DNA of 64,000 nucleotides, from contig NZ_JBBYXL010000010.1 in assembly GCF_039655865.1 (NCBI RefSeq), forward strand, positions 1 through 64,000, given 5' to 3'. The notes below the pieces were generated by a model. That model saw only the letters and a list, made by a program, of their open reading frames with translations. It was not told the DNA's origin and searched no databases. Source of the stretch: Prosthecobacter sp. SYSU 5D2. Its GTDB lineage: Bacteria > Verrucomicrobiota > Verrucomicrobiia > Verrucomicrobiales > Verrucomicrobiaceae. Every line of letters begins with the position of its first letter. Positions within the stretch are counted from its first letter, which is position 1. The translations under genes and the position numbers were made by a program. Of the stretch, positions 1 through 9,200 are shown piece by piece.

Positions 1-209
1 GCATCGCCAGACCAGGTTGGAACATGACCGGCAACGCCGCGTGCCAGCAGCACGGACGGCGCGGAAAATACGTGTCCAGCAACAGCCATGAGAGCCTTCC
101 GGAGGAACCCGGTTCACCACGCTCGAAGCCGCATAAAATCAAGGATCCAGGCATTTTCCGCTTGACGACTTTTTTTCAGAGAAGGGTGCGACAATTGACA
201 GATTTGTTT
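1..209. other. Left edge, no gene resolved
   Basis: No convincing coding region is visible here. On the minus strand an ATG at 89-87 opens a frame that stays open to the window edge (about 29 codons, beginning MAVAGHVFSA) and is preceded by a purine-rich GGAAGG. It could be the start of a leftward gene, but it is too short to identify. The stretch also carries the left inverted repeat of the RAYT element at 186-204. Confidence 0.3.
186..204. repeat. Left inverted repeat of the RAYT element
   Basis: The 19-mer GTGCGACAATTGACAGATT lies just beyond the 3' end of the RAYT gene. Its exact reverse complement is at 1294-1312, just upstream of the gene's start, so the transposase is bracketed by perfect 19-bp inverted repeats. 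RAYT transposases are known to be flanked by inverted REP sequences that they recognise as single strands; that this repeat is the substrate is inference. Confidence 0.75.
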
Positions 210-1268
210 TCAGGAGGGGTCATGGGATTTGATGAAGACTGTCAATGTTTCGGGCAGCCGGCCTTTCTTTCCGGCTTTCTCGAGACGCCGGATCTGCTGG
301 CTCACATTGGTGGCGCTGCTCATGTGCAGCTTCCTGGCGATCCATTCCTGGGTCGCTGTCGTCTTCTTCCACACCAGCCTCGCCAGCGCCACCTTCCGGA
401 TGTCTGAGCCTTTGAGGGTAGCGAGGTCTTTTTCATCGAGTCCGGAGGCGGCCAAGCCCTCTTTCACATAGACTTCCGCTTTCTCCAGGCCGTGTGCCCT
501 GGACTGTGGGCTATGCTTATAGGCGCGGGATTTGGGTGCTTTCTCTCCCTTGAGAACCCCGTCCACCCATTGCCGCAGTTTTTCGGCAAAGGCCTGGCTT
601 CCCCAATACCAGCCGCGCCGCAGGTGGCTGCACCGCGCATCCACCTCTTCGGGCAAGTGTGGCACGCCACAGTTTTTTAGCGATTCTTTGACCGCGCGTT
701 CGTCCAGCCTTTCCACCATCCGGCGGTGCCCGGAGGTGTTGTCGGGAAGCTCAAAGGCTTTCAGGGCCGCTTCAGTGTCCAGCCATTTGGGACGGCGCTT
801 CGGCGGCAGGGCATGACCGCCGGCGAGACTGCTCCACGGGTAGTCCAGCACACTCTGACCGCTGCCGGGCCGCACCAGGCGGGCGCGCACGGGATTGAGG
901 TGGATGTAGTCCATCAGCGTCTGGTAATGGTAACGGTCCTCGCCTTCCACCACCACAGCCTTGTAACGGTCGCCAAACAGGCGGCCCCACTGATGGTGGC
1001 GCACGTTGTAACGGCGGGTCAGGGTGTTTTGCAACCAGGACATGCCAGCGACGAGATTGGCCTCGGGCGTTTGGATGAAAAGGTGGTAATGATTGCCCAT
1101 GAGCACCCAGGCATGCACCCGCCAGCCCGTCATCTCACAAGCCTGGCCAAGGGTGTGGAGGAAGAAGCACCGGTCATCGTCATCATGGAAGATGGCTTCC
1201 CTGCGGTTGCCCCGCGCCATCACATGATAATAAGCACCGGGATACTGGATGCGGAGGCTGCGCGGCAT
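210..1268 (-). CDS. REP-associated tyrosine transposase (RAYT, Y1/IS200-like)
   Basis: This 352-residue protein is a single-strand DNA transposase/nuclease of the HUH superfamily, of the kind that domesticates and spreads REP palindromes. The N-terminal Y1_Tnp domain (about residues 5-140) has the typical opening YHVMARGNRR, the metal-binding HUH motif in GNHYHLF (about residues 58-64) and the catalytic-tyrosine helix in MDYIHLNPVRARL (about 119-131). The C-terminal third (about 275-350) is basic and looks like a DnaA/HTH-type DNA-binding segment, as in larger RAYTs. The start MPRSLRIQYPG is the usual one for the family. The ORF is intact. The gene sits between perfect 19-bp inverted repeats and is divergent from the second HUH gene. 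The family call is firm; activity is unproven. Confidence 0.93.
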   Translation of the reverse strand: MPRSLRIQYPGAYYHVMARGNRREAIFHDDDDRCFFLHTLGQACEMTGWRVHAWVLMGNHYHLFIQTPEANLVAGMSWLQNTLTRRYNVRHHQWGRLFGDRYKAVVVEGEDRYHYQTLMDYIHLNPVRARLVRPGSGQSVLDYPWSSLAGGHALPPKRRPKWLDTEAALKAFELPDNTSGHRRMVERLDERAVKESLKNCGVPHLPEEVDARCSHLRRGWYWGSQAFAEKLRQWVDGVLKGEKAPKSRAYKHSPQSRAHGLEKAEVYVKEGLAASGLDEKDLATLKGSDIRKVALARLVWKKTTATQEWIARKLHMSSATNVSQQIRRLEKAGKKGRLPETLTVFIKSHDPS

Positions 1269-1282
1269 GTCTTGTCAATATC

Positions 1283-1333
1283 ATAGAATGTCCAATCTGT
1301 CAATTGTCGCACACTGACCCCGTTTCTTGTTAT
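1283..1333 (+). repeat. Repeat copy A (RAYT right end / left end of Rep cassette)
   Basis: This segment of about 51 bp matches 2326-2376 at about 43 of 51 positions by eye; the strongest part, 1302-1333, matches 29 of 32. It contains the 19-bp inverted repeat of the RAYT element (1294-1312) and then CTGACCCCGTTTC, a core also found in the REP-like hairpin at 5627-5680. It therefore serves both as the right end of the RAYT unit and the left end of the Rep cassette. The first ATG of the next gene is three bases after it ends, so it may also supply the promoter or translation signals. Confidence 0.8.
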
Positions 1334-1336
1334 ACC

Positions 1337-1618
1337 ATGACTGCCAAATGTCTTTGCATCGAACAACGCGCCGATTCCTACACCGGCAAGCGAGGTGTCG
1401 TCCACCAGCAGGTCCTCACCCTCCTGGACATCAGCGCCGAACACCGCTTTCTGAACACCTTCGATTTTGTCCTCAGCCCCGAGGACATCGAGAAGCTCAA
1501 AGGAGCCTCCCTGCGTGACCAGCATGTGGAGCTGGGCATCACCGCCTTTGAACCCACCTTCGGCGGCAGGCTCCGTGCCCGCGGTGCCCTCATCAGCAAG
1601 CACCCAGCCAAGGCCTAA
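1337..1618 (+). CDS. Small protein paired with HUH Rep, possible ssDNA-binding protein
   Basis: A 93-residue protein starting MTAKCLCIEQRADSYTG. I chose the ATG at 1337 because the upstream in-frame TTG at 1304 lies inside the repeat. The protein has mixed beta-rich character, with conserved-looking segments GKRGVVHQQVLTLLD near residue 20 and FGGRLRARG near the end, and no signal peptide or membrane segment. It ends 12 bases before the Rep gene, so the two are probably co-transcribed. In filamentous phages and rolling-circle replicons a protein of about this size that coats single-stranded DNA often neighbours the replication initiator. That role is an inference from size and position; I do not recognise a named family. 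Confidence 0.6.
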   Translation: MTAKCLCIEQRADSYTGKRGVVHQQVLTLLDISAEHRFLNTFDFVLSPEDIEKLKGASLRDQHVELGITAFEPTFGGRLRARGALISKHPAKA

Positions 1619-1630
1619 ACCCTCACGACC

Positions 1631-2125
1631 ATGGAAGCACCGGAGATTCACGTCCTCAAAGAGATCCCCTGGCAGTTCTTCGGCACCCTCACCTTCAAAC
1701 AGGAGCGGCTGCCGGAGAGGATCCGGCTTTCCATGTTCTTCGCCCTGCTGCGCAAGTCTGCCAAGGCGCACAGGGTCCCCTTTAAAAAGCTCCTCTGGTG
1801 CCTCCGTCAGGAAGACGGTGAGGCCACCGGGAGACGGCATTTTCATTTCCTCCTCGCAGGACTGCCCCCAGAAGCCTGCTCCATACGCACCTGCTTTGCC
1901 CTTAAAAACGGCTGGGAAGCCCTCAAGGGCGGCATGGCGCGTGTGAGCCTCTTCGACCCCCGTCTGGATGCGGGGAGCTACCTGACCAAGCCGCCCGCTG
2001 GCCCCGCCGATCCCGGTGACGCCTACGAGTCGGCCAAGTTCGGCAGCAGCACCTGCAGCCTCATGATCGCTCAAGCCGCCTGGAAGTTTGCCGCTTCCAG
2101 GAGGGCGGCCCAGCTAATGCGATAA
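1631..2125 (+). CDS. HUH-endonuclease replication initiator (Rep-like)
   Basis: A 164-residue protein with the three motifs of rolling-circle Rep proteins in order: motif 1 FFGTLTF (about residues 16-22), motif 2 HFHFLLAG with the metal-binding His-hydrophobic-His (about 74-81), and motif 3 SYLTK with the candidate catalytic tyrosine and following lysine (about 118-122). There is no helicase domain, so it would rely on host enzymes. Rep proteins nick an origin and attach covalently to the 5' end. The gene lies with the 93-residue protein between direct repeats, next to an unrelated HUH protein (RAYT). It may be an integrated replicon or phage remnant, or a transposable cassette. The protein is short but shows no frameshift. 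Confidence 0.75.
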   Translation: MEAPEIHVLKEIPWQFFGTLTFKQERLPERIRLSMFFALLRKSAKAHRVPFKKLLWCLRQEDGEATGRRHFHFLLAGLPPEACSIRTCFALKNGWEALKGGMARVSLFDPRLDAGSYLTKPPAGPADPGDAYESAKFGSSTCSLMIAQAAWKFAASRRAAQLMR

Positions 2126-2186
2126 GGGCTTAACATCCGGCACAGACGGCTTGCTCGGGCCGCATGTGACCTTCCACAGCCTGGCT

Positions 2187-2241
2187 CCACCGCCCGGCAG
2201 AGGGGATGCGCGCGCAGCGCGCGCCCCTCGCTGGGCGGTGG
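2187..2241. other. Long GC-rich hairpin downstream of Rep
   Basis: Nested stems: CCACCGCCC (2187-2195) pairs with GGGCGGTGG (2233-2241), GAGGGG (2200-2205) with CCCCTC (2224-2229), and an alternating GC run (2208-2214) with 2217-2223, leaving a very small loop. No T run follows, so it is not an ordinary terminator. Inside a Rep cassette it could be a single- or double-strand origin or a structure needed for transposition. The structure is seen directly; the function is inferred. Confidence 0.6.
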
Positions 2242-2323
2242 ATGGCTTGAAGACCCACTATGCCCACGTCCCAAGACCCCTTCGCCGGGGAGGATCCCCT
2301 GGACTGCATGTGAGATGTACCTG

Positions 2324-2764
2324 CTATGGATTGTCCCATTTGTTAATTGTCGCACCCTGATCCCGTTTCCTGTTATTTCCTATCGGTACAGCAAACATTA
2401 CGAGGAGAACGAGTGATTGCCACAGGATGACCTCCAACGAATTTGGCCCGGACGCTAAGGCAACAAGAGCCTCTGATGACAATAAACAGGCCAGACCTAA
2501 TGTCAGATTAACTATTGAGTATGTGGCCCTATTTGACAATTTATTCACCCAGATGAAAAGAAGCAGGGGCAGTGCATAAACAACAAGGGATAACACCACC
2601 AAAGCGGGGTGCTCACAAGCAGGGTTGAATACAAAACCCAGCCAGAGCAGCGCTCTAACGATAGTCAAAAAAACCAAACAGCAAAGGCTGCCCAGCAAAA
2701 GAACTTTAAGAATGATCGCATTAGTTTCATCGCCACGGCATCGGTCCAACGGGGACCGTTTCAT
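2324..2764 (-). CDS. Small multi-pass membrane protein, possible RHS immunity protein
   Basis: A 146-residue protein with about four hydrophobic segments (roughly residues 18-45, 53-72, 82-104 and 112-128) separated by short polar loops. Its start MKRSPLDRCR overlaps the end of the RHS tip reading frame by 38 bases, so the two are probably translationally coupled. RHS tip toxins are normally followed at once by a small immunity gene, and membrane-embedded immunity proteins usually protect against membrane-acting toxins; the role here rests on position only. The last residues (about NRKRDQGATINKWDNP) are encoded by repeat copy B, so the original C-terminus appears to have been replaced when the repeat cassette arrived. 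I recognise no family. Confidence 0.55.
   Translation of the reverse strand: MKRSPLDRCRGDETNAIILKVLLLGSLCCLVFLTIVRALLWLGFVFNPACEHPALVVLSLVVYALPLLLFIWVNKLSNRATYSIVNLTLGLACLLSSEALVALASGPNSLEVILWQSLVLLVMFAVPIGNNRKRDQGATINKWDNP
2326..2376 (+). repeat. Repeat copy B (right end of Rep cassette)
   Basis: Direct, imperfect copy of 1283-1333 (about 43 of 51 by eye). It lies in the same orientation and closes the Rep cassette on the right. Its left part encodes, on the minus strand, the tail of the small membrane protein. Confidence 0.8.
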
Positions 2765-3356
2765 TAATTACCCGCCAAGCTTCTTTGGTGGTCCCACCAC
2801 ATTTTTCGCTGACCGTCTTTCCAACGGCGTTAAGATATGACTTCCACATTGTATCCGCCACACTATGCGCCTTGCTCTCTGCAAGCGCATTTAGGTTGTT
2901 GGTTACTTCATACGCCTCAGTCCAAATAGATATCGTCGAGCATTCGCTCTCATGTGTCATTAGTGGCTCTGACCCCCAACGGCGTCGCCCAATGAGTGGA
3001 TGCGATTCTTCCGTTGTAGCCTGGAGGTCATAAGGAGCGTTAGACGGCCCAGTGGTCGTCTCTACTCCAATATCATTTGCAATTAGCCCAGACAGAAAGC
3101 CATCTAAACCCTGAGGTTGAAACTGCGCATGACCATCGGAAACCTCAACCCAAGCCCCAGTTTTTGCACCGTTGAACAAGTCGAAAGTTCGCAAATGTTT
3201 ACGAACCATCTCTTGCATCTCTTTAATTGTGCAGCAACAACCTGTAACAACATTCTCATGCTTGGTATGATGCCAAGCAAATTGATCGTTTACTTGTGAA
3301 TTAATTGGAGGCTCTCCAGGTGCTGGAGTACGTGGGGGGTATAGTTTGGTATCCAT
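2727..3356 (-). CDS. Frameshifted RHS C-terminal tip (toxin-like) domain
   Basis: A 209-residue open frame that continues the truncated RHS core after a one-base slip. Its first residues, YPPRTPAPGEPPINSQ, form the proline-rich linker commonly seen between RHS core and tip. The rest is a variable domain with a Cys triplet (near residue 40) and a GRRRWG motif (near 123), and no signal peptide. If the G6 tract at 3334-3339 had one more base, the core would read straight through into this domain. The base composition is visibly less GC-rich than the core, as usual for exchangeable tips. I do not recognise the toxin family. It could also be expressed alone from the ATG at 3356. Confidence 0.6.
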   Translation of the reverse strand: MDTKLYPPRTPAPGEPPINSQVNDQFAWHHTKHENVVTGCCCTIKEMQEMVRKHLRTFDLFNGAKTGAWVEVSDGHAQFQPQGLDGFLSGLIANDIGVETTTGPSNAPYDLQATTEESHPLIGRRRWGSEPLMTHESECSTISIWTEAYEVTNNLNALAESKAHSVADTMWKSYLNAVGKTVSEKCGGTTKEAWRVINETVPVGPMPWR

Positions 3357-5617
3357 CCCTGTCGGCCTAGCACATCCACCCTGTTTACCGGATCATTGTG
3401 GACCATCCCGTAAAGGTTGATTCCCCCGCGTTCTCCAATCGGATCCCGTGAGATCCACCTGCCCATTTCCGGCGAGTAATACCGGTAGCCGTAATACAGC
3501 AGCCCCGTCTCCTCGTCCTCATACTTGGTGCTAAAGCCCAGCGGTGGTAGCTCGCCTGCGCGCCGTCTTTCCTCCCATACCTTCTCGCCGAAGGCTCCGT
3601 AGTCGTGCTTCGACACGACCACCCCGCTGACTCCTTCCACATAGGCGGTTACGTTCCCGTTGCCGTCATAGCACGGGGTCAGCGTCACTCCGCCCGCTTC
3701 CTCCACATAGACCAGCCCTCCCACGCCTCCGGCCTGCTGGCCGTCAGAACTGATGTCGTTGCCCCAGGCATAGGCCCTTAGCAGCGCGGGTGCTCCTCCT
3801 GATCCCATCTGGAATTCGGCGATCATGTTCCAGCCATCATACAGATATCGCAGTTCCTTTTCCAGCGTCATTGTTCCGCCGCTGCTCACAAATCCCAGCA
3901 CCCGCTTGGCCACCCGGCGGCCCACGGCGTCATAGGCAAACTCCAGGCGCTTGCCGGGGGCTCCCGCCGCCAGTGCGTCGGCGCGGGTTTCCATTGCCGC
4001 CAGGCGGTTCTCCGCCGTCCATTCATAGGTCCAGCGGCCGTCGCCGGTCAGGTTGCCGTCTGCATCATAAGTGAGGCTCTCCGGGCTGGCTGCGAACCAC
4101 AGGCTGCCTTCCTTCTCCGTGGTCACCGGCGGTGGCCCGGCCCGGCTGGCCGTGATTTCCAGTTCCTTCCACTCCGCCACCCCGGCGGCCTGCGCCTTGG
4201 CTGCCGGCACGGCAAACTCCCAGCCCTCACGCTGCGGCGATCCGCCATCGTGGCCGCTGACCTGCAGCGCAGCTTCCGGTGCCGCCACGCCCAGCACCCA
4301 CCGCTCCGGCAGGATCTCACGTTCCGTGATCTGGTTGCCCTCATTGGCCGTCCAGGCGGCCACCAGCGGCCCGTCGCTTCCTTGTTCCTCCAGAGTCTTC
4401 CGGTTGCCTGCCAGATCGTGGTCATAACCCGTCTGCATCCCTGGACGCAGCGGCGCGTCTTCGCCCCCATGGCGCGCCTTCACCGCGTGGATGACCTCTC
4501 CGCGCGAGTTGTAGCCATAACGCCACTGCTCCCCGGTTTCACGCGTGGCGCTGCGGCGGCGGTCCATTGAGTCAAACCCGTACACATGGCGCGTGAGGGG
4601 GAAGGTTCCGCGCTTCCACTTCACCGCCTTCAGGCGGTCCAGGCTGTCATATTCCCAGATGCCCTCCGGGCCGCCATTGCCGTAGGCCAGGGAGGTGCGG
4701 CGTCCGCTCACCGGATCATAACCGTAAAGGGCCTGGCGGCCAAAGGCGCTGACGCTCTCCAGGCGGCCTGCCGCATCAAAGCCGTGTTCCGTGCTGCGGT
4801 TTGCTCCCGCCCAGCTCCACGACACCTCATCACTACGGTGGTTGCTGGCATGGTAACCATAGCTGAGCACCGCCCCGTCCAGCAACCCGCCGCTGATGCT
4901 CTCGCCACTCAGGGCGCCGTTTGGCCCATCGTAATGATAGGTATGCAGGCCCGCTGCATCTGTGGTGGTGTGCAGCCGTCCGTCCGGATGATAGGCATGG
5001 CTGATGGCCGGCGTGCCGTCGTTGTAAGTGATGCCCTCCAGCCGCCCGGCGTCATCATAGCTGTAAACGGCCGTCACGGGAGCCCCTTGGGCATTGGTCC
5101 GGCTCCAGCTCCGGCTCGCCAGGCGGGCGGTGGCCGGATCATAAAGGTAATTGGCGGAGTTGCTCAATGCGTCCGTTTTGTCTCGCAGCAGGCCGCTGGC
5201 GGGATCATAATCCCAAAGGGTGGCATCCCCCTCGCTCTCCGTGCCTGCTGTGGGCGTGGTGCGGAAGGTGTCCAGCCGGGAGAGATGCCCGTAGGCATCA
5301 TACCCGTAGCGCAGCGGGGCCGTGCCGCTGCCGGAGACAAAGGTCACCCGGCCCAGGAGGTCATAGGCATAGTCCGTCCAGGTGCCGTCCGCGCGGATGT
5401 GACGGGACGGCCTGCCTGCCCCCAAGCTGCCCTGGGGATGGTAATGGTACATCTGCACCGGCAGAAACACCTCCCCACCCGCCGACCGGCGCTCCACCCG
5501 CAAAACACGGGAGCGCACGGTGCCATCCGGCAGGTCATCATAAACGGTGCGCAGGGCCACCCCGTTGGCTGAAGTTACCATGAACGGACGCTCCAGGGCA
5601 TCATAGTCATAGGTCAC
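3290..5617 (-). pseudogene. Truncated RHS-repeat core (YD repeats), lacking N-terminus
   Basis: 775 residues of RHS/YD repeats (YDYDALERP, YDLLGRV, YDDAGRLEG and many others) ending with the conserved core terminus SRDPIGERGGINLYG and NDPVNRVDVLG at about residues 725-752. RHS proteins form a closed beta-cage around a toxic C-terminal tip and normally have long N-terminal export or anchoring regions. Here the repeats begin at residue 1 (GTG start) and an in-frame TGA lies in the REP-like repeat just upstream, so the 5' part is missing. After the core the frame gives only about 20 unrelated residues before stopping, while the tip continues in another frame. It is most likely a displaced, decayed RHS module or a reserve cassette for recombination with the giant RHS gene upstream. 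Confidence 0.8.
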
Positions 5618-6250: not shown

Positions 6251-9200
6251 TCAATTTACCGCTAGGGCTTCGGTTCTAGCCCTCACAAGTGCTTCTATCA
6301 CAACAGCCGCCGCCGGGCCACCATTTTGTTGAGTAAAGCCCTGAGCCATATATCCTTCACAAATTTGAGCTTCAGATTGATTACCAGATTCAACTGCCCA
6401 TTTCCAATTTTGGACATGGTTGGTCATGTCTTGCGCTGCTCCTTTTCCGTTAGCGAACATAATCGCCATACCCACAAGACCAGCAGCTCCCCCCACCTTT
6501 AGTCCAAGGGGTACTTTTCCACTGGCATTTCCGACTGATGTCATTGTTCTCTTACTGCTGAAAAAACTCTTTTTAGATTCATATTCCGTCGGGGCCTCTC
6601 CTGGTTTTAGCCGAGGATTTGTGGTATCTTTGGCAAGGTGGTATTTTTCATCACTAAGACGTTGGGTGCCAAGTGATTTATAATCGGGGTGTTCTTTAGC
6701 CAAATGGTCTTGAATTTCACGTTCCACGACCATCCGCTGGGCCTTCGCACTAGTCTGACTTGGATTATCTTCCGCAACGATTGTTCGGGAATAAGCAATT
6801 GTTCCCTCTTTATCCCTCAAGCTCTTCGCTTGATGGTTATGGTCATTCATCCGTTCGGCTGGCGGCCGTTCAGTTTCCCCGACATAGTACTCTTTCGTTT
6901 TGTGATTTATCTCAACATAAACACTGCCGACTTCTTTAGCTGCCAAACCTCTCGGATCGAACTTGCTCCAAGGATTCTGTTTCACATACGCATACAAGTT
7001 GGGGCCGTCCACGAACCCCGCAGGGTCGCGGCTCAGCCACACGCCGGTTTCCAGGTCGCGGTAGCGGAAGCCTTCGTTGAGCAGGCCGGTGGGGTCTTCC
7101 TCTTTGCTGTTGGCGCGCTGGCGGTCTTCGTTGACCCCGGTCTCCTGGGTGCGGCGGCCGTAGGCTTCGTAGCTGGCCTGCCAGGTGATCGCACGGCTAT
7201 GGTTGCTCTGCGCCACGATGTCGCCCCGGCCGTTGCTGAGGCTGTATTTCAGGGTGGTTCCGCGCTGGCTGTAGAGCATGCCGCCTACGCCGCCGCCCAT
7301 GTCCGGGCCGCGCAGGTAATGCACGGTGGGCTGCAGGCTCGGGGTGACGGTGACTGGCGTGCTGCCCTCATACTCGGCCAGGCTGACGCCGCCGGAGAAG
7401 ACCACTGCGCGGTTCTTCGCCGGACCTGTGGCGGGCGTCTCCTGCGTGGCGATGCGTCGTGTGCGGTAGTCATAGGCATAGTGGTGCTCGCCGCCGTCGG
7501 GAGTGTTCACCGTTACCAGCCGGTCCTGCGCGTCCCAGTGGTAGGTGGTCGTGCCGGTGGCCGCTTCCGCCGGTGCTAGCGCGATTGAGGCCGCCCCGCC
7601 GGTGATCGCCTGGCTGGCACGGTTGCCGGCATCGTCATAGATCAGTGTGGCCTGGCGCAGAATGGTCCCTGCTGGCATCTCGCGTTTTTCCCAGGCCGTG
7701 AGCTGGTTGGCGCTGTTGTAATGGTAATCCCAATGGCCCGCGCCGCTGCCGCCAGTCACTGTTTTGCTCGCCCGGTTGTTGGCGTCATCATAGGCATACA
7801 CCGTGTTGGTGTCGCTGCCGCTGCCGGTGGGCAGGTCAATGATTTCTCCGGTCAAGCGGCTGGCATCGTCATAACTGAGCGTCGTGGTCTTCACGCCGCT
7901 ACCGCCCAGCGCACCAGGCCAGCTTTCCTCCTGTGTCATCAAATTGCCCAGGGCGTTGTAAGTCCAGTCAAACTTGGCCAGGATGCCGGTGGGGGTGCGG
8001 TTTTCCAGGCTGCTGTACAGCGTGCGATGCTTCAACCTGCCGGCCAGGTCGTAATCGTTTTCCGTCACCTGGCCGTTGCCAAGCATCAGGATCACGGCTC
8101 GTCCGGCGCGGTCATAACCATAGGTGGTCAGGCGGCCGCCTTCGGCGATGGTCTCAGGCCTGTTCATCGCATCATAACTGGTCTCCACCGTCCGCCCCGT
8201 GCCATAAACGGCGCGGATGCGGTTGCCTGCCACGTCATAAGTGTATGTATGCGTAATACCCTGCGAGGTCTCCGTGAGCATGCGCCCGCCCAGGTCATAG
8301 GTGAAGCTGACGGCGGCCTCCGGGCGGCCCGCCTCCGTGACGGTCAGGACGCGGCCTTTGGCGTCATAAGTCATGGTACGCGACAGCGCAGCGGCTCCGT
8401 CACCGGCAGGGGCGCTGCTGGTCAGCACACGGTCACGCTCATCATAGGTGAAGGTGGTGGTGATATTACGCGGCGAAGTCTGCGTGAGCTTCTGCACCGC
8501 ATTGTAGGTGTGGGTGATCGTGTCGCCGTTGTCAAAGGTCTGCGTGAGCAGCCGGTTCAGCCCGTCATAGGTGAAATCCGTCTCCTGGTCCTTGCCATCC
8601 ACCACCTTCGTGCGGTTGCCTGCGGCATCGTATTCAAACCGGTTGAGGATGTTCTCCGGGTCCACGCTGGTCAGCAGGCGGCTGTGCGCATCGTAAGTGT
8701 TGGTCGTCGTATGGCCCAGGGCATTGGTCAGCGTCAGCACATTGCCGCGCGTGTCATGCGTGCTGCGGGTTTTGTTCTGCAGCGCATCCGTCACCGCATA
8801 CACGCGGCCCGCGCGGTCATAGGCCTTCGTGGTCACGCCGCCGCCTGTGTCCTCCACGCTCAGCACCTGGCCGGCAGCATCATAGACCGTCTTGCTCACC
8901 AGGCGCACAAACTCCGCCGCCTCCGCATCCCACACCGGTGGGCTCACCGTCTGGATGGGCCGGTTGCGGGCATCGTAAAAGGTGTACGTGATGCCTCCCA
9001 GCGGACCTTTTTGCGTGAGCTGGTTGCCCGCCGCATCATACGTGTATTCCAGCACCGGGGTCTCACCGCCCACAGCGGGAAGCTCCGTGCGGATCAGCCG
9101 CCCGGCGGCGTCATAATGCATCATCGTCGCCGCTTCCGCCTCATCCACGGTGCAGAACACCTTGCCGTCGTGGGTATAGTAATGCCGCACCGTGGTGTCA

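Follow-up and report, generated by a model that had tools for sequence, protein, structure and literature searches.

HUH nuclease signals at the 3′ ends of RHS toxin-immunity modules in Prosthecobacter: a possible boundary for cassette exchange

A REP-associated tyrosine transposase gene (RAYT; REP, repetitive extragenic palindrome), a rolling-circle replication (Rep) gene and an RHS toxin-immunity module lie side by side in the 64,000-nucleotide stretch of DNA analysed here (the window), which begins contig NZ_JBBYXL010000010.1 of Prosthecobacter sp. SYSU 5D2. The region from 183 to 2376 is read, with even confidence, as the 3′ boundary of an exchangeable RHS toxin-immunity cassette, with nicking by an HUH nuclease behind the exchange; either Rep or RAYT may drive it. 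In the genus, RHS genes repeatedly point at an origin-like sequence, a RAYT repeat or both, and their modules end there. The original prediction concerned the RAYT and Rep genes and the repeat around them; the neighbouring RHS toxin-immunity module, which lay outside that interpretation, is what unites the parts. Loci, genomes and contigs are referred to below by numbers preceded by L, G and C, respectively.

The 3′ signals of RHS modules

The RHS gene of the window occupies 3290–5617 on the minus strand and was identified from RHS_repeat (E 3.4e-21) and from an Rhs_assc_core at 3365–3601 (TIGR03696, 94 bits, over the cut-off). An open reading frame (ORF) of 209 aa in the position of the C-terminal (CT) toxin follows at 2727–3356 on the minus strand, between the end of the RHS core and an ORF of 146 aa in the immunity position (2324–2764, minus strand). 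Both roles are assigned by position only; the toxin-position ORF gave no match in Pfam or NCBIfam and the immunity-position ORF gave none in Pfam. The window module has an RHS core end followed by a variable CT and a small downstream ORF. Two signals stand at its 3′ end. One is the second copy of a 51-nucleotide RAYT repeat (2326–2376, plus strand), which overlaps the 3′ end of the immunity-position ORF. The other precedes it on the plus strand and consists of a large two-tier hairpin 3′ of Rep at 2186–2242, seen as an inverted repeat and in the predicted fold of 2166–2270, and the putative origin core GGCTTGAAGACCCACTATGCCC at 2244–2265.

A covariance model of the origin, built from nine short-hairpin copies, was used to search 48 genomes and gave 20 strong places (E ≤ 3.1e-5) and 40 weak places (E 3.9e-4 to 0.05); the Rep-borne origin of G004 (E 0.0098) was excluded from both lists. 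The curated TIGR03696 model identified RHS cores at 150 places in 40 of the 48 genomes, five of them under the family cut-off. With this model alone, 12 of the 20 strong origin copies lay within 2 kb of an RHS core compared to 0.048 expected, and none of the 40 weak places did. Eleven of the 12 share one arrangement; at G017:C35 the nearest core is on the other side of the origin, with another core on the usual side. In this genome a single origin is approached by an RHS-type module on either side (L063 and L064). When a profile built from four origin-bearing loci (the window, L062, L056 and L067) was used, 15 of the 20 strong copies had an RHS core end on their 3′ side, 0.64–1.63 kb away and reading toward the origin. 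The RAYT repeat gave a similar picture, an RHS core being within 2 kb at 12 of its 106 places compared to 0.24 expected. All 12 share one of four arrangements, which is that of the window, and three of them belong to a single RHS gene (G009:C57). The genome of the window itself contains five RHS cores and two origin copies, each copy beside an RHS core, and one of its 15 RAYT-repeat places, that of the window, is near RHS. Overall, 21 of the 150 RHS cores had one or both signals within 2 kb. Because both signals are enriched beside RHS cores in a fixed arrangement, both may be taken to mark the 3′ boundary of exchangeable RHS cassettes.

Rep sequence was found directly 5′ of the origin (E ≤ 0.01) at nine of the 20 strong copies. 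It belongs to the Rep1 family of the window at the window itself (full length), L063, L066 and L067, and to a second family, Rep2, at L069, L057, L058, L060 and L070b; L056 is a further case through its nucleotide similarity to L057. The Rep2 of L069 is intact, with 451 aa, a PF23343 score of 45.2 bits against a cut-off of 27.8 and a match to a rolling-circle initiation PHROG; the origin comes directly after this gene, and then a small ORF and an orphan RHS-type gene. Searches with Rep2 gave no matches in IMG/VR and phages and three weak matches in plasmids. Rep2 tails also end 11–14 nt before a RAYT repeat in L092, L093 and at two repeats of L094. Beyond Rep, a RAYT gene or a fragment of one was found in the window, L058, L062 and L066, and also in L092, L095, L097 and L100. 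The order RAYT (or fragment), Rep (or tail), origin or repeat, and RHS, in the same orientation, recurs at G042:C1 (L066), G009:C57 (L092) and G021:C448 (L058) and involves two RAYT and two Rep families, so the pairing of the two nucleases goes beyond coincidence, as the original prediction had supposed. The same order, with a Rep1 fragment, hairpin, origin-like sequence, small ORF and RHS gene (RHS_repeat, 217 bits), occurs in a Verrucomicrobia metagenome-assembled genome record (L082), in which no RAYT repeat was found. At 1140–2405 of L097 (minus strand) the first 26 residues of a RAYT continue in frame into RHS-repeat-like sequence.

Of 120 pairs formed by 16 origin copies, 71 cease to share sequence between +19 and +23 of the origin; L070b was excluded from the count because its core could not be aligned. 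Column by column, pairwise identity stays high up to +21 and is near background by about +35. From about +105 to +710 there was no inter-locus nucleotide match of at least 40 nt, and matching returns at the RHS core end; on the other side of the origin sharing reaches from about 40 to about 960 nt, depending on the group. At L070b (8079–8147) and L071 (5092–5158) the origin match, as judged by eye, stops at the proposed nick, like a half-site joined to other DNA. In L070 a single module is enclosed by two directly repeated origins, which are 3.1 kb apart. L094 contains two direct repeats of about 0.69 kb, 85.8% identical, which run from the RHS end (with a Rep tail) to the RAYT repeat between successive orphan modules, and L093 carries the same block. 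Inspection of the element ends in L069 and L037 gave no convincing flanking repeat and no clean unit.

Many of these facts are also compatible with a passive hotspot, in which RHS arrays undergo ordinary homologous recombination, the origin, Rep tails and RAYT parts are debris from phages and RAYT elements that inserted into dispensable DNA and are copied within a repeated linker, and no HUH enzyme is active now. This is a serious rival and is considered quite possible, if somewhat short of probable. The linkers of L094 are long enough for homologous recombination, RAYT fragments of several kinds lie nearby, and the only full-length Reps at a boundary are Rep1 of the window and Rep2 of L069, the others being fragments. 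In Salmonella, an orphan toxin recombining with the main rhs gene has been described (PMC3967940). What a passive hotspot accounts for less well is the single fixed arrangement in all 12 RAYT-repeat and 15 origin cases, the abrupt loss of similarity where the origin ends, seen in most pairs, the hairpin pairing, which is kept in 98.6% of cells over 10 copies, and the intact Rep2 of L069.

The Rep1 module and its origin-like sequence

Rep1 is encoded at 1631–2125 on the plus strand and is a protein of 164 aa of the inovirus (G2P) type of HUH rolling-circle Rep. Its match to Pfam PF23343 (REP_ORF2-G2P; E 1.2e-5, 25.9 bits) falls just under the cut-off of 27.8, and an alignment with 11 relatives (12 sequences) showed that the HxH and YxxK motifs are present. 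It is preceded by ORF1 (1337–1618, plus strand), a small protein of 93 aa that gave no family match in Pfam and NCBIfam scans. A homologue of ORF1 with 52% identity lies directly before Rep in G004, and homologues also precede Rep in L087 and L088; from its position, ORF1 may be a gV-like single-stranded DNA-binding partner. Single-sequence folds were poor, with a mean pLDDT (predicted local distance difference test) of 47 for Rep1 and 59 for ORF1. Judged from their sequence, Rep1 and the upstream ORF1 make up a replication module of inovirus type, which has a 3′ signal of its own, the hairpin and GGCTTGAAGACCCACTATGCCC at 2186–2265.

Matches to Rep1 were obtained in 10 of 96 genomes searched, its own genome included, and in six genomes of a 387-genome draw from the phylum, three of which are shared with the first set. 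None was found in IMG/VR (searched for close relatives only) or in the phage and plasmid collections. Relatives of Rep1 lie beside a Zot/protein I homologue in the inovirus-like prophages L088 and L091, and the coat-like protein of L091, which is under the Pfam cut-off, matches a PHROG of major coat proteins. The window resembles the inovirus replication module (gII/G2P-type Rep, single-stranded DNA-binding protein and origin) in its PF23343-type Rep, small partner ORF, hairpin and nick-like sequence. It differs in that a scan of six window proteins (the larger ORFs of 210–5617) found neither a coat nor a Zot gene, and in that Rep-less copies of the origin stand beside toxin-immunity modules. 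Pairs of Rep and small ORF also occur alone: L065 (G004) is followed by HsdM, L087 (G107) by an Eco57I-type methylase and L090 (G225) by Vsr and a C5 methylase rather than by RHS. The methylase, Vsr and HsdM genes are perhaps other cargo of the same Rep module. The homology of Rep1 and ORF1 to the replication pair of prophage L088, together with the stand-alone pairs of G004 and G107, would suit a free-standing satellite or plasmid replication module of inovirus origin that had integrated by chance beside the RHS gene. Such an event is regarded as highly improbable, since the origin accompanies 15 RHS modules in an unchanging arrangement and Reps of another family occupy the equivalent position; the genus-wide enrichment argues against pure chance.

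Behind 11 of the 12 other Rep1-like loci a stem of 6–17 bp is followed by CTTGAA(G/T), 64–282 nt past the Rep stop, and at seven of these 11 TATGCC occurs further on; the twelfth locus, L027, gave no resolved origin. The core in the window has the same CTTGAA(G/T) motif. The sequence at 2186–2265 is therefore described here as a putative replication origin, in which nicking would take place at CTTG^AA. Searching 56 genomes for the origin 22-mer with up to three mismatches gave 14 places in eight genomes; the reversed control gave seven scattered matches, so the 22-mer pattern alone is weak evidence. One of the copies (G068; L040/L068) was judged by eye to be a chance match within a coding gene and was dropped. 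Across the phylum, the bare pattern GCTTGAAGN{5,7}TATGCC was found at 38 places in 33 of 387 genomes compared to 29 matches in the reversed control. Thirty of these loci were retrieved, of which none had a stem of at least 8 bp within 45 nt upstream and none had an RHS match. As the loci retrieved lack both stem and RHS, the phylum matches are mostly chance, and the phylum-wide evidence consists of L082 only. An integron attC site, in its generally known form, was considered for the TAAC...GTTA stretch near some origin copies and was rejected, as no pairing partner for the conserved 22-mer could be seen by eye.

The RAYT gene and its repeats

The RAYT gene (210–1268, minus strand) encodes a Y1 HUH transposase of the TnpA_REP type with 352 aa. 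It scored 43.5 bits against Pfam Y1_Tnp (cut-off 23) and 63.2 bits (E 2.4e-17) against the NCBIfam model for REP-associated tyrosine transposases, NF047646, which is under the cut-off of 80; it was the sole full-length match within its own genome. The gene had been predicted to lie between perfect 19-bp inverted repeats, and this was borne out: the left, REP-like repeat at 183–204 (minus strand) pairs with 1294–1315 over 22 nt, with 95% complementarity and 19 bp perfect. Repeat comparison showed that the right repeat and its flank form the first copy of the 51-mer (1283–1333, plus strand). The predicted direct copy at 2326–2376 is likewise real and is identical at 43 of 51 positions (84%), compared to a best direct match of 31 of 51 in 30 dinucleotide shuffles of window positions 1–4000. 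Within the 64 kb, the repeat core CTGTCAATTGTCGCACAC occurs three times with up to three mismatches, a number reached in none of 100 shuffles. A chance origin of the window repeats, core and 51-mer alike, is ruled out by the shuffle controls. The two copies enclose ORF1, Rep1 and the large hairpin. The second copy had been thought to close the Rep cassette, but Rep has its own hairpin and nick-like sequence, which come before it; the repeat at 2326 is a RAYT repeat at the end of the RHS cassette and not the end of a Rep cassette.

The direct copies that flank ORF1, Rep and the hairpin raise the possibility of a composite element, a unit containing RAYT and a small rolling-circle replicon (183–2376 or 1283–2376) with RAYT repeats as its mobile ends. 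Two unrelated HUH nucleases are indeed present beside one repeat family, but the repeat as the end of the Rep cassette did not hold up, as it was found at none of the 12 other Rep1-like loci (2.1–3.5 kb each) and not in L082. Since Rep has its own 3′ origin and the repeat was found at none of the 12 loci, the RAYT repeat is not part of the Rep module. In addition, no second copy of the composite exists in its own genome, and in the relic in G042 a RAYT fragment adjoins a Rep tail and no repeat was seen. Mobilisation of the Rep replicon by RAYT repeats was likewise not supported by the genus-wide distribution, in which 12 of 106 repeat places are near RHS and all eight inverted pairs at RAYT spacing are on contigs without a Rep1 match. 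The composite is thus judged very unlikely.

The RAYT repeat is dispersed, with 16 places in its own genome, of which one on C3 was dropped as likely chance; these repeats also pair into REPIN-like units of about 100 nt. The related pattern was found at 106 places in 30 of 48 genus genomes, with one match in the reversed control. The genus-wide pattern has a 6-nt spacer and misses the 5-nt variant of the window's genome, which was searched in that genome only. Seven genomes contain eight inverted repeat pairs 1.1–1.5 kb apart, of which two have a repeat in common; three further pairs at 0.9–1.2 kb are direct and were excluded from this count. The one inverted pair that was examined, in L095, encloses a RAYT homologue. 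As inverted pairs recur in the genus and that of L095 encloses a RAYT homologue, the RAYT unit itself is ordinary. Among the control repeats away from RHS (L101–L111), several are likewise on the 3′ side of a gene that reads in their direction, and the orientation rule may therefore hold in part for RAYT repeats in general. At L059 and L061 (G001) a RAYT-like repeat lies 7 and 12 nt past the modelled end of the origin, oriented as in the window. L021, on C8 of the window's genome, contains three REPIN-like units of about 100 nt at 95–201, 2469–2573 and 2625–2732 (GTGCGACTTTTGACA ... TGTCAATTGTCGCAC), with a DDE transposase of 480 aa at 950–2392 (DDE_Tnp_1, 97.7 bits) between the first two. The 91 nt at 110–200 of the window, comprising the left RAYT flank and repeat, are 94.5% identical to 24–114 of L021, where they precede a REPIN-like unit at another contig start.

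The first base of the window is also the first of its contig, and several repeat places are near contig starts (C6, C8 and C10), as they might be if the arrangement were an assembly artefact at a contig end. The stretch from Rep through the hairpin and repeat to RHS is uninterrupted, and a similar order occurs in other genomes, leaving an artefact scarcely credible.

The RAYT unit resembles the REPtron (TnpA_REP/RAYT and REP; IS200/IS605-like) in that a Y1 HUH gene lies between inverted copies of a dispersed short repeat. Unlike the REPtron, in which a GTAG-tagged palindrome is a REP feature (PMC8266576), the window 51-mers contain no GTAG on either strand, and the repeat is over-represented at the ends of RHS modules.

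Proposed exchange of RHS cassettes

A number of observations weigh against a 3′ boundary at which HUH nicking underlies cassette exchange. Neither signal lies within 2 kb of 129 of the 150 RHS cores, and 94 of the 106 RAYT repeats are away from RHS. Five of the 20 strong origin copies (L059, L060, L071, L072 and L073) have no RHS core nearby; of these, L060 is accompanied by a SUKH-3 immunity gene, the contig of L071 ends 1.16 kb away and L073 is probably a chance match. Among the six strong copies that the model search was the first to detect, and which had no part in building the model, three have RHS (G047 and, twice, G018) and three do not (G001:C95, G034:C14 and G012:C66). The small ORFs beyond the origin matched a named immunity family in only one of 19 tested. 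Covariation in the hairpin is modest, with changes on both sides in two of seven pairs, a level matched by 34 of 500 shuffles. The end of the shared sequence is less sharp in a subgroup (the window, L054, L056, L062, L066 and L067), where sharing extends past the origin to +44 to +102. The intact Rep1 modules of G004 and G107 adjoin restriction-modification genes and have no RHS. Eight of the 10 genomes with strong origin copies have no intact Rep1 match (Rep2 was not searched genome-wide), and a helper Rep would therefore be needed. Finally, no nick, circle or transfer was observed.

In rolling-circle initiation of the filamentous-phage type the displaced strand starts 3′ of the nick. If the boundary worked in this way, CTTG^AA would be nicked by Rep, either in cis or supplied in trans by a related phage, and the strand displaced from the nick would start with the immunity gene and continue into the toxin tip, so that the cassette would be the first DNA mobilised. 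Where two origins are present as direct repeats the cassette could be released as a circle, the second origin ending it. Re-entry would involve rejoining at the resident origin and homologous recombination in the RHS core. Cutting by RAYT at its own repeat would be an alternative route that uses the same boundary.

This proposal may be extended, as a doubtful and tentative suggestion, to one in which RHS cassettes are cargo of rolling-circle units. Each unit would comprise a Rep gene, the origin, the immunity gene and the toxin tip, the one in L069 being intact and those elsewhere worn. Their own Rep or that of a filamentous phage would peel off the cassette, circularise it between direct origins as in L070, and insert it again between the resident origin and the RHS core; the cassette might also be packaged into phage particles.

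Rolling-circle transposons of the IS91/ISCR and Helitron type also have an HUH Rep and a terminal hairpin, and adjacent genes could be carried by them. Here no defined second end and no duplicated whole element was found and the Rep is of phage type; the 3′ end of the unit is fairly sharp and its 5′ end is undefined. The RHS orphan arrays of Salmonella (PMC3967940) and polymorphic toxin cassettes (PMC3482391), so far as the available parts of these papers describe them, share with the window the RHS core end, variable CT, small downstream ORF and displaced orphan modules in tandem. In contrast to those arrays, the 3′ boundary here is an HUH origin or a RAYT repeat with Rep tails; the available parts of both papers discuss cassette recombination and leave an HUH-type boundary unmentioned. 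No such link was described in the literature on RAYT/REPIN, Rhs cassettes, inoviruses and Prosthecobacter Rhs, as judged mainly from titles and abstract openings.

Homologous recombination alone is the usual explanation for the swapping of toxin tips and their matching immunity genes. If a defined site for a single-strand nuclease does lie where the cassette has its free end, it would provide a concrete and testable route of exchange, would connect filamentous phages and domesticated transposases with the spread of contact weapons, and would give a sequence handle for locating cassette boundaries in genomes. The unusual pairing of RAYT and Rep in the window would then be one such cassette boundary, and may show how toxin-antidote cassettes are exchanged.

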